32,401 bases of DNA from Propionibacteriales bacterium (GTDB taxonomy: Bacteria; Actinomycetota; Actinomycetes; Propionibacteriales; Nocardioidaceae): contig JAICMS010000015.1 of NCBI GenBank assembly GCA_025929075.1, positions 1 to 32,401 on the forward strand, in the 5' to 3' direction. The notes below the pieces were generated by a model that was not told where the DNA came from, did not search any database, and was given only the letters and a program-made list of their open reading frames with translations. Each line of letters starts with the position of its first letter. Position 1 is the stretch's first letter. This document shows, piece by piece, positions 10,487 to 27,625 of this stretch. A program made the position numbers and the translations under genes.

Positions 10487-11596
10487 GTGAGTCACGATGA
10501 GTCGCTGCAACCGAGCCAACTGCAGCCGACGCGGCTCCCCGACCTGTCGACGCCCTGCCTCGTTGTCGACTCTGACCGGCTCGATCGGAACATCGCCGAG
10601 ATGGCGTCGTACGCCGATAGCCACCGCCTCACGCTGCGGCCGCACGCCAAGACCCACAAGTGCCACCAGATCGCCCGTCGGCAGCTCGACGCGGGTGCCG
10701 CCGGGCTCACGGTGGCGACGATCGGCGAAGCGGAGATCTTCGCGGAGGGCGGCTGCGACGACCTCTTCGTCGCCTACCCGCTCTGGGTCGACCAGCGCCG
10801 CGGTCAGCGGCTGCGCGACCTCGCCGACCGCTGTCGGATCGCGGTCGGGATCGACTCGGCCGAAGGCGCCGAAGCGGTCGCGCGGCACGCCGGCGACCGG
10901 GTCGAGGTGCTGGTCGAGATCGACAGTGGCCACCACCGGACCGGAGTGCCGCCGCAGCATGCCGGTGACGTCGCGACGGCTGCGCGGCGCGCCGGGCTGG
11001 GCGTGCGAGGCGTGTTCACGTTCCCTGGCCACAGCTACGGACCGGGCATGGCCGGCCGGGCAGCGGATGACGAGCGGCGGGCGCTCGAAACTGCGGCGGC
11101 CGCACTGCAGGCCGTGGGCGTCGACGCCACCACCGTCAGCGGCGGTTCGACGCCGTCTGCCCATCGGACCGACAGCGGTCCGCTGACCGAGATCCGCCCT
11201 GGCGTCTACGTCTTCGGCGACGCCCAGCAGGTCGAGCTCCGCACCTGCGCCTTCGACGACGTCGCCCTCTGCGCGGCGGCCACCGTGGTCAGCCGCGGCA
11301 CCGGCCGGGTGACCCTCGACGCCGGCGGCAAGGTCCTCGGCGCCGACCGCGCGACCTGGTCGACCGGCTACGGCCGCCTCCCCGACCAGCCCGACGCCCG
11401 GATCACGGCGCTGTCGGAACATCACGCCACGGTGTCGTGGCCTGAGGGGGTACGTCGACCAGAGCTGGGCGCCGTCGTACGCGTCATCCCCAACCATGTC
11501 TGCGCCACCGTCAACCTCGCCGACGAGCTCATCGTCGTCAGCGCCGGGCAAGTGGTCGACACCTGGCCGGTGGCGGCCCGCGGCGCCAACACCTAG
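10487..11596 (+). CDS. D-threonine aldolase / D-serine dehydratase-like PLP enzyme
   Basis: The 369-residue fold-type III PLP enzyme has an alanine-racemase-like N-terminal barrel with the PLP-binding lysine K55 in RPHAKTHK. EIDSGHHRTGV and VSGGSTPSA are the phosphate- and cofactor-binding loops, and a C-terminal barrel carries PNHVCATVNLADE, whose His and Cys bind the metal (Mn or Zn) in this family. Family knowledge: members cleave D-threonine to glycine and acetaldehyde or dehydrate D-serine; which applies here is undecided. The GTG start follows GAGAGG at 10473-10478 with good spacing. No neighbouring gene suggests the pathway. Confidence 0.88.
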   Translation: MSHDESLQPSQLQPTRLPDLSTPCLVVDSDRLDRNIAEMASYADSHRLTLRPHAKTHKCHQIARRQLDAGAAGLTVATIGEAEIFAEGGCDDLFVAYPLWVDQRRGQRLRDLADRCRIAVGIDSAEGAEAVARHAGDRVEVLVEIDSGHHRTGVPPQHAGDVATAARRAGLGVRGVFTFPGHSYGPGMAGRAADDERRALETAAAALQAVGVDATTVSGGSTPSAHRTDSGPLTEIRPGVYVFGDAQQVELRTCAFDDVALCAAATVVSRGTGRVTLDAGGKVLGADRATWSTGYGRLPDQPDARITALSEHHATVSWPEGVRRPELGAVVRVIPNHVCATVNLADELIVVSAGQVVDTWPVAARGANT

Positions 11597-11617: not shown

Positions 11618-11675
11618 CGCCGAACGCACCTTGAGGGATCCGGGCAGCTATGGCGACCCGAACTCCTCAAGATCG
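11618..11675. repeat. 58-bp intergenic repeat, unit 1
   Basis: The unit starts with CGCCGAAC and ends with GATCG. It matches unit 2 at 56 of 58 positions. CTTGAGG (11630-11636) and CCTCAAG (11665-11671) form a perfect 7-bp inverted repeat around a 28-nt loop. Confidence 0.85.
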
Positions 11676-11722
11676 GTCGAACCGGGACGCGACCCAACAG
11701 CCCCTGATGATCACCACCCGAG

Positions 11723-11780
11723 CGCCGAACGAACCTTGAGGGATCCGGGCAGCTATGGCGACCCGAACTCCTCATGATCG
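11723..11780. repeat. 58-bp intergenic repeat, unit 2
   Basis: This unit is a direct copy of unit 1 starting 105 bp downstream. The two differences are at 11732 (A for C) and 11775 (T for A); the second breaks one pair of the inverted repeat. Confidence 0.85.
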
Positions 11781-11841
11781 CCACCCGCCGAACCCGAACT
11801 TGAGGGATTTCGGCGGCCGGAGCGACGGCAATCCCTCAGGA
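11781..11841. repeat. Diverged third repeat unit with 11-bp hairpin
   Basis: After the same CCACCCG-CCGAAC lead-in, CTTGAGGGATT (11799-11809) pairs with AATCCCTCAGG (11830-11840) with one mismatch over 11 bp. The central sequence differs from units 1 and 2, but the stem is kept and longer. Confidence 0.6.
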
Positions 11842-11904
11842 CCAGAGCGCCAACGGACGTCGCGACCACGGGCGAGGATCGGACCCCAAACCATGCCGGC
11901 CACA

Positions 11905-11916: not shown

Positions 11917-12213
11917 GTGATCTTCCGTGGAGTGCGCGCCACGAGGCCCTACCCCGACCACGGGCTGCAGTCACGCGACTGGGCGCACCTGCCACCGCAG
12001 CAGGTGCGGCTCGACCAGCTGATCACGACCAAGGACACCCTCGACCTCGCGACGTTGCTCGACGAGGACTCGACGTTTTACGGCGATCTCTTCGCCCACG
12101 TGGTGCAGTGGCGCGGCGACCTCTACCTCGAGGACGGTCTGCACCGGGCGCTGCGGGCGGCTCTGCAGCAGCGCCAGGTGCTGCATGCCCGTGTGCATGT
12201 GCTCGACGGGTAG
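11917..12213 (+). CDS. Conserved actinobacterial ParB-like / 'VapB-family' small protein
   Basis: The 98-residue protein reads VRLDQLITTKDTLDLATLLDEDSTFYGDLFAHVVQWRGDLYLEDGLHRALRAALQQRQV in its middle and end. The DLYLEDGLHRALRAALQQ part resembles the ParB/Srx-like motif (a D/E-G-x-HR segment). Similar actinobacterial proteins are often labelled VapB-family antitoxin, though this is not a ribbon-helix-helix VapB and no toxin is next to it. It precedes a LytR_C-domain gene on the same strand, a pairing I recall in other actinomycetes. The GTG at 11917 is supported by the -10 box and by the conserved MIFRGVR start. Function unknown. Confidence 0.75.
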   Translation: MIFRGVRATRPYPDHGLQSRDWAHLPPQQVRLDQLITTKDTLDLATLLDEDSTFYGDLFAHVVQWRGDLYLEDGLHRALRAALQQRQVLHARVHVLDG

Positions 12214-12285
12214 ATCACACTTGTTGACGGGCTCCTGCCGATCAGCGGAGCCGGGCCCAGTCGGCGACCGAGAGGAGGGGCAGCA

Positions 12286-12825
12286 GTGGCGGTGCGTACG
12301 CCGATCACGCTGCTCGTGCTCGTGGGCATCCTGCTCGGCGCTGCCTACTACGGGTGGCAGACGGTCATCAACCCGGCCACGGAGGCCACCACGACTCAGG
12401 GTCCCACCCACGCGTCCAAGCCGACATGTGTGAAGCAGAAGCAGTTCCTGAAGGGGCAGGAGATCAAGGCGGCCGACATCGTGGTCAACGTCTTCAATGC
12501 CGGCACGATCAGCGGCCTGGCCGGCGACGCGTTGTCCGCCCTGCATCAGAAAGGCTTCCAGATGGGCATTGCCGCCAACCCGCCGGGCGGCGTGGGCGCC
12601 ACCAATGTCACCGTGCTGACCGACTCGCCGCAGTCGCCGGAGGTGAGGCTGGTTGTCAGCCAATTCCTCGGCAAGGTGCTCGTGCGTAAAGGGCCGAACC
12701 TGGCGCCCGGCATCGACGTGGTCATCGGCCAGGACTTCAAAGGCATCGCGGAGAAGGCGCCGACCACGCTGCGGCTGAGCCACGACGTCACCACGTGTCT
12801 GCACCTGGTGACGCCGGCCGCCTGA
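12286..12825 (+). CDS. Membrane-anchored LytR_C-domain protein
   Basis: The 179-residue protein has an N-terminal membrane anchor at about 6-25 (ITLLVLVGILLGAAYYGW), a Thr/Pro-rich linker, and a LytR C-terminal domain at about 64-150. That domain includes DIVVNVFNAGTISGLAGDALSALHQKGFQMG and the later VVIGQDF segment. Family knowledge: LytR_C occurs on the outside of actinobacterial cells, alone or attached to LCP wall-polymer ligases; its ligand is not settled. Two cysteines, C48 (PTCVK) and C172 (TTCLH), could form an extracellular disulfide. The GTG start has an excellent GAGGAGGGG upstream. It lies 72 bp downstream of the preceding small protein gene. Confidence 0.85.
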   Translation: MAVRTPITLLVLVGILLGAAYYGWQTVINPATEATTTQGPTHASKPTCVKQKQFLKGQEIKAADIVVNVFNAGTISGLAGDALSALHQKGFQMGIAANPPGGVGATNVTVLTDSPQSPEVRLVVSQFLGKVLVRKGPNLAPGIDVVIGQDFKGIAEKAPTTLRLSHDVTTCLHLVTPAA

Positions 12826-27170: not shown

Positions 27171-27521
27171 TCAGTGGGCCGCTTCGTACGCCTCGACGAC
27201 GCCCGCCGGGATTCGGCCGCGGGGGCTGACGTCGTAGCCGTTGGAGGTTGCCCAGTCGCGGATGGCCTTGGTTTGCAGCGGATCACGCCGAGTGATGCTA
27301 CGGCTACCGCGAGGCTCGGTGCGACGGCTGGTGCGGCTCACCCGGCGGCCAGCCTTGATGTAGGCCGCCATCGCGGCTCGAAGCCTCTCCGCTGCCTTGT
27401 GGTCGACATCGAGCTCGTACTGGTTCCCGTCCAGAGCGAACGACACGGTCTCGCCCTCGCCGTCTGCTAGCTCCTTGCCGGTGATGTCGTCGATCAGGAC
27501 GGTAACCGTGCGCTGTGCCAT
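27171..27521 (-). CDS. lsr2: Lsr2-family nucleoid protein
   Basis: The 116-residue protein matches Lsr2 along its length. The N-terminal oligomerisation domain (1-60) reads [39 protein letters not shown], then a basic linker ([17 protein letters not shown]) leads to the C-terminal DNA-binding part ([26 protein letters not shown]). That part has the RGR core at 101-103 that inserts into the minor groove of AT-rich DNA. Family knowledge: Lsr2 is the actinobacterial H-NS counterpart and silences horizontally acquired genes. GGAAGGA six bases upstream sets the ATG at 27521. Its place inside a putative island suggests an accessory copy, though it could be the chromosomal one. Confidence 0.92.
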
Positions 27522-27625
27522 CTGAGTCCTTCCAGTCACGCGGTGACGTATAAGCAATCGGAAAGTCTAAGGTCCCTGTCCGCGCCAGACTTTGATAAGG
27601 CTGTCCACGACCCGAAGGCCTGCGA

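Follow-up and report, generated by a model that had tools for sequence, protein, structure and literature searches.

Three copies of a dispersed palindromic repeat are found in the window, the 32,401-bp stretch of DNA analysed here, which is contig C22 of a 2.69-Mb, 224-contig draft genome (G000, the source genome). On balance we consider it probable, with some reserve, that they are non-autonomous copies of a two-component chromosomal repeat system, similar in kind to REP/RAYT but with an unrelated protein. The first component would be the dyad itself and the second a protein of about 290 amino acids, whose gene lies between copies of its own dyad. The palindromes flank the gene of the protein that probably binds and spreads them, and therefore the two look like an undescribed kind of bacterial repeat-spreading pair. 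No description of such a pairing between palindromes and an AbiEi-nuclease protein was found in the literature searched, most subscription journals being outside its reach.

Two 58-nt copies in the window, at 11618–11675 and 11723–11780, are identical at 56 of 58 positions and lie 105 bp apart from start to start, which bears out the original prediction. The third unit had been read as a lead-in and a hairpin only. It is instead a full-length family member, more diverged than the other two, and its core scores 45.5 bits against the repeat matrix, compared with 48.8 and 45.7 bits for theirs. The unit core is the dyad CTTGAGGgatt..GGTCGC..GCGACC..aatcCCTCAAG of about 58 bp, and the family consensus is an extended dyad, ACGGATCTTGAGGgnTTnnGGTCGCnnnnGCGACCnnAAnCCCTCAAGATCCGT. 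The coordinates in Table 1 follow the register of the genome-wide family, in which the first unit starts 25 bp past the stop of the upstream gene. The VapB-like gene on the downstream side adjoins a gene for a LytR_C domain protein, the two together covering 11917–12822 on the + strand.

Table 1. Palindromic units and adjoining genes in the window.
Feature	Position	Strand	Remark
Palindromic unit 1	11622–11679 (58 bp; 42-nt core 11630–11671)	−	Match to the genome-wide consensus; also matched by model R1
Palindromic unit 2	11727–11784 (58 bp; core 11735–11776)	−	105 bp from unit 1, equal to 10 helical turns
Palindromic unit 3	11791–11848 (58 bp; core 11799–11840)	+	64 bp from unit 2, about 6 helical turns
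Upstream neighbour, alanine-racemase N / D-serine dehydratase domains	10487–11596	+	Outside the repeat system
Downstream neighbour, VapB-like (PF23719)	11917–12213	+	68 bp from unit 3; outside the repeat system

Further copies in the genome and in relatives were found by BLAST, pattern and matrix searches and by the sequence-only model R1. Thus the earlier suggestion of a REP/MITE-like family was right in kind, in that the repeats are dispersed intergenic palindromes. The matrix scan located at least 28 copies in 12 contigs of the source genome, a lower bound since it covered only the neighbourhoods of matches, and gave no match in a shuffled control of 126,825 bases. Pattern searches of this whole genome gave 25 forward and 28 reverse matches, against 4 and 6 for the backward control. 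The dyads are 48–58 bp long and consist of two inverted half-sites of about 23–29 bp with a centre of about 4 bp. Each half-site is built from a conserved inner block, GGTNGC, and a lineage-specific outer block. In six genomes none of the 61 clusters falls inside a called gene. The flanking genes are convergent for 31 of them, co-directional for 23 and divergent for 7, and most clusters are within 30 bp of a stop codon. The 16 clusters of the source genome are more mixed (4 convergent, 8 co-directional, 4 divergent).

Model R1 has matches in 58 of the 294 family genomes, spread over 12 of the 26 genera, with the most copies in Aeromicrobium (Nocardioidaceae according to NCBI). In a collection of named genomes the exact pattern occurs in nine stretches, of which five come from metagenome bins of Aeromicrobium, three from Haloechinothrix halophila and one from Jiangella muralis, the last two species belonging to other orders than the source. 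The pattern matches number 34 in Haloechinothrix (backward control 0) and 8 in Jiangella (backward control 1). Within one genus the repeat is patchy, and a single orthologous convergent site holds 0, 1 and 4 copies in three Aeromicrobium genomes. Two species (G148 and G162; loci L069 and L078) also have dyads at an equivalent position next to a response-regulator gene, so some copies are kept or shared vertically. In G160 (loci L099, L103 and L107) TGAGGG and TGATGC dyad subfamilies coexist, mostly in separate clusters.

The clustered copies are spaced by whole helical turns, about 63, 74, 84 and 105 bp, in several genera. The phase test used 59 neighbour spacings of six genomes, together with spacings of a second dyad family among the matches listed. 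The 59 values are confined to 61–64, 71–75, 84–85, 105 and 125 bp, and none is found at 65–70 or 76–83 bp. Taking one spacing per cluster (n = 37) gives R = 0.94 at 10.5 bp. The same R = 0.94 is obtained after removal of the dominant 61–64 bp class (n = 16; P about 1e-5 versus jittered spacings). When distinct spacing values alone are counted, the phase signal is weaker and still significant. In the second dyad family, which belongs to distant members of the protein family, the main spacing among the matches listed is 52 bp (5 turns), followed by 61–63 and 72 bp, and off-phase spacings of 49, 131, 136 and 162 bp are also present among them. Such whole-turn spacing suggests that a protein binds along one face of the DNA, and proteins bound in an array would be aligned on one face of the helix. 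For binding assays this phasing is a ready prediction.

A gene associated with matching dyads on both of its sides was found by clustering the proteins encoded near copies. One family recurs between two copies, twice in G148 and once each in G152, G160 and G179, and these are the five gene-between-dyad places in Aeromicrobium genomes. In the source genome the gene (C46:8238–9125) occupies a 1.1-kb gap between two dyads, and its protein is 53–55% identical to those of the relatives. Except for this AbiEi-nuclease gene, the neighbour proteins of single clusters belong only to common families or to shared orthologous places. Matching repeats on both flanks, at a score of at least 22, are observed at 62 of 70 loci. 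Among the controls this score is reached at none of the 30 aminotransferase loci and in 7 of 600 random stretches. The best close members account for 28 of the 62 (30 loci), the further close members for 16 (20 loci) and the distant members for 18 (20 loci); the other 8 loci score below 22. A cut-off of 16 is too weak, because 31 of the 600 random stretches pass it. The matching flank repeat is usually a palindrome with genome-specific outer arms.

A close member of the protein family is present in 17 of 19 repeat-rich genomes versus 29 of 275 others. The contrast is less marked when only Aeromicrobium is considered (12 of 14 versus 16 of 35, P = 0.013). Two genomes with many repeats, G111 (one contig, 99% complete) and G193 (58% complete), gave no member, and therefore repeats can exist without the gene. 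Collections of plasmids and of phages gave one weak match each, and this near-absence indicates that the system is chromosomal.

On the basis of its model and sequence matches, the protein combines an AbiEi-type DNA-binding module and a Vsr/DUF559-like predicted nuclease domain in a single chain. Residues 1–186 are AbiEi-like (winged helix plus NTase-like domain) and residues 189–293 are Vsr/DUF559 PD-(D/E)XK-like. The AlphaFold model from 66 sequences has a pLDDT of 91.5 (53.5 with 6 sequences). The first part matches AbiEi (6y8q, Z 10.9 over 177 residues) and Rv2827c of M. tuberculosis (1zel, Z 9.4). PADLOC assigns AbiEi to three of three proteins (best E 3e-12, 2.2e-13 and 8.9e-15), and Pfam AbiEi_4 is found in 9 of 66 members. 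The second part matches the endonuclease-like structure 3hrl (Z 6.2) and, weakly, PvuRts1I (3.7) and TnsA (2.4); a structure Z below 8, as here for 3hrl, proves little by itself. The nuclease assignment is made because 3hrl is also matched by sequence profile (E 7e-4) and because Asp225, Glu236, Gly239, Arg254 and Asn256 are invariant in all 66 members. DUF559 is reached in 24 of 66 members at E 0.01, and a viral fold library gave no match at E ≤ 0.001.

The operator bound by AbiEi consists of two inverted repeats of 23 bp separated by 3 bp, and Rv2827c likewise binds 23-bp repeats in pairs (PMC7319586). The likeness to the present system lies in the fold of residues 1–186 and in this paired operator, which is close to our half-sites in size and to our dyads in layout. 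Here, however, there is an extra C-terminal nuclease-like domain, and the dyads flank the gene on either side and also occur at scattered places in the genome. In profile and in fold the C-terminal domain resembles proteins of the DUF559/Vsr-like type (3hrl, PvuRts1I), and it shares the conserved residues D, E, H/D-G-x-x-H, R and N, but here the domain is fused to an AbiEi-like module. An association of DUF559/Vsr-like nucleases with repeats was not found in the literature searched.

The palindromes and the protein diverge together. The identity of the half-sites rises with that of the proteins (Mantel r = 0.63, P = 0.0002) at 52 of 66 loci, the 14 loci without a match of at least 36/58 being left out of the test, and this co-divergence is partly shared ancestry. 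The gene adjoins rpoC in G160, G179, G117, G171 and G100 (L171, L172 and L180–L182; Aeromicrobium group), and the proteins of the first four are 64–70% identical. At these loci the flanking dyads differ between species, both sides together. Relative to rpoC, the gene has the opposite orientation in G171 and G100, an arrangement expected from recombination between inverted flanking dyads. Dispersed copies resemble the gene flanks of their own genome (14.76 of 17, versus 12.13 when permuted, P = 5e-5), although own flanks take first rank in only 4 of the 13 genomes compared, 7 of which had a single dispersed copy tested. Their likeness to own flanks and the species-specific dyads at one gene place suggest a concerted turnover of copies within a genome.

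A dyad read from the flanks of distant members, GTCATACG..GGTNGC..CGTATGAC, is dispersed in 6 of 10 genomes (58 copies in G028, 26 in G186, 23 in G095, 14 in G107, 6 in G113 and 1 in G170). In the other four no dispersed copies were found, and the backward control gave none in all ten. The forward test in Haloechinothrix, which had been picked up by DNA only, was half a success. One close member is present (E 2.7e-109) and has a 58-bp upstream palindrome with 24 of 25 pairs. This palindrome differs from the 34 dispersed copies of that genome, which are of the TGAGGCGTT type, and only a weak counterpart lies downstream (palindrome score 0.60; 42 of 58 positions identical). Jiangella contains seven more distant members, with strong palindromes within reach of the gene on both sides in two, on one side in four and on neither side in one. 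Among the Jiangella muralis paralogues (L242, L246, L247 and L248) the palindromes have the outer arm ATGATCATC in common but different inner parts.

From these results we infer binding, cutting and copying as follows. The AbiEi-like part would bind the half-sites as double-stranded DNA, by analogy with the binding of paired 23-bp inverted repeats by AbiEi and Rv2827c. The nuclease domain may then cut or nick at the dyad and so promote its copying into other intergenic sites, and new copies would be found mostly at 3' ends, where insertion is least harmful. The same nuclease action could homogenise the dyads, giving a concerted change of copies within a genome. It is possible, if somewhat short of probable, that this represents an undescribed class in Actinomycetes. 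In such a class an AbiEi-like module with a Vsr/DUF559-like nuclease would recognise its own long dyad as double-stranded DNA, would seed and homogenise helix-phased intergenic arrays, and would repeatedly change its recognition sequence, which would make flanks and dispersed copies vary in step between species. A widespread group of DUF559-like proteins would thereby gain a testable role, and the many natural pairs of protein and site could reveal how an AbiEi-type module reads DNA.

A rather unlikely alternative is that the protein binds the dyads for the benefit of the host, as insulators between convergent genes, as nucleoid or supercoil sites or as a regulon, with a nuclease domain that is structural or rarely used and with no mobilisation. 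The helix-phased arrays and the symmetric conservation of the dyad would suit such a role, as would the position of the clusters, 31 of the 61 being placed between convergent genes and most lying no more than 30 bp from a stop codon. However, a repeat that is patchy within one genus, with 0, 1 and 4 copies at one orthologous site, does not fit a host function well. The invariance of the nuclease residues in 66 of 66 members and the flanking of the gene by its own repeats also argue against it.

We regard as improbable a defence or toxin–antitoxin device, in which the AbiEi-like part represses its own gene via flanking operators, the dispersed dyads are decoys or self-marks, and the nuclease attacks DNA on some trigger. 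The PADLOC match and the AbiEi fold agree with this explanation, as does the autoregulation of AbiEi antitoxins via paired inverted repeats (PMC7319586). Yet no AbiEii-type (DUF1814) toxin partner is found among the six neighbour proteins checked at four loci, which are AMP-binding, PEPCK, ABC-type, response regulator and kinase proteins. Furthermore, matching dyads are located downstream as well as upstream of the gene, and the family is nearly absent from plasmid and phage records.

The repeat is a DNA element and not a structured RNA. The copies fold stably because they are palindromic (mean hairpin energy −24.6 kcal/mol in the source genome and −32.9 kcal/mol in G160). RNAalifold nevertheless predicts no pairs on 26 copies, and the paired cells of the source-genome copies amount to 75.2% versus 76.2% after shuffling, with no excess. 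The original prediction had proposed selection for stem structure and compensatory changes as its check. Paired positions vary independently, and covariation shows no excess in the larger sets, each drawn from a single genome or subfamily (n = 28, 49 and 30, the last two from Aeromicrobium). A slight pairing excess is seen in the G160 TGATGC-type set (n = 8), where 23 and 15 of 300 shuffles are as high by two measures. Between subfamilies and species both halves of the dyad do change together. Conservation of the two halves is mirrored, with r = 0.55–0.58 in the source genome, a value possibly inflated by the uncertain orientation of a near-symmetric element; the correlation for the pooled, unoriented set of all copies was set aside. 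In the larger sets compensating changes are lacking, and the selection for stem structure proposed in the original prediction is not borne out.

An RNA-level element, such as a bidirectional terminator, an mRNA 3'-end stabiliser or an attenuator, is thus very improbable, even with hairpin-forming copies located just past stop codons. In addition to the missing covariation, an Rfam search of the window gave no match above the gathering score, and the hairpins of the source genome are not followed by a T tract (mean 3.5, maximum 7 T per 20 nt of tail). A helical spacing is meaningless for RNA, and 7 of the 61 clusters lie between divergent genes. A regulatory RNA or attenuator for the gene at 11917 had also been suggested, but clusters in six genomes adjoin many different genes, 31 of the 61 being between convergent ones.

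The copies are palindromic, dispersed, intergenic and found as doublets, but a classical REP mobilised by RAYT, or a MITE belonging to an insertion sequence with a DDE transposase, is largely refuted and can hardly be considered further, since the RAYT Y1 transposase (PF01797) is found in 2 of 294 family genomes, neither of them repeat-rich nor the source genome (a draft missing about 6%), target-site duplications show no excess, and no isolated half-site pair surrounds a transposase in the loci examined. The PF01797 search gave matches in 5 of 14 control genomes. As candidates, a RAYT-moved REP was rejected on the absence of PF01797 from the source genome and all repeat-rich genomes, and a transposon with target-site duplication on the lack of excess at the tested boundaries (lengths 2–6, 8 and 9; 24 single copies and all 120).

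Our preferred reading, a two-component system of dyad and protein, shares much with REP/REPIN and RAYT. Both have short dispersed extragenic palindromes, often as doublets and mostly downstream of genes, and in both a chromosomal gene is flanked by repeats while repeat type and protein co-vary by lineage (PMC3116915, PMC3733652). In contrast, the protein here has an AbiEi-like part and a PD-(D/E)XK-like nuclease domain in place of a Y1 HUH transposase, the dyad is 48–58 bp long, its arrays are phased by whole helical turns, and it is found in Actinomycetes. CGTC REPs apparently lack a dedicated transposase (PMC3733652), and the word 'actinobacteria' does not occur in the available part of that article. 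With MITEs and insertion sequences the system shares a gene bounded by repeats and small non-coding copies, but its repeats are complete palindromes instead of terminal arms, and neither a target-site duplication nor a DDE transposase was identified. REP-type palindromes have so far been tied to one enzyme class, RAYT, and here a second, unrelated protein has its own palindromes. Elsewhere in the window, a gene for an Lsr2-type nucleoid protein (PF11774, PF23359) is located at 27174–27557 on the − strand.
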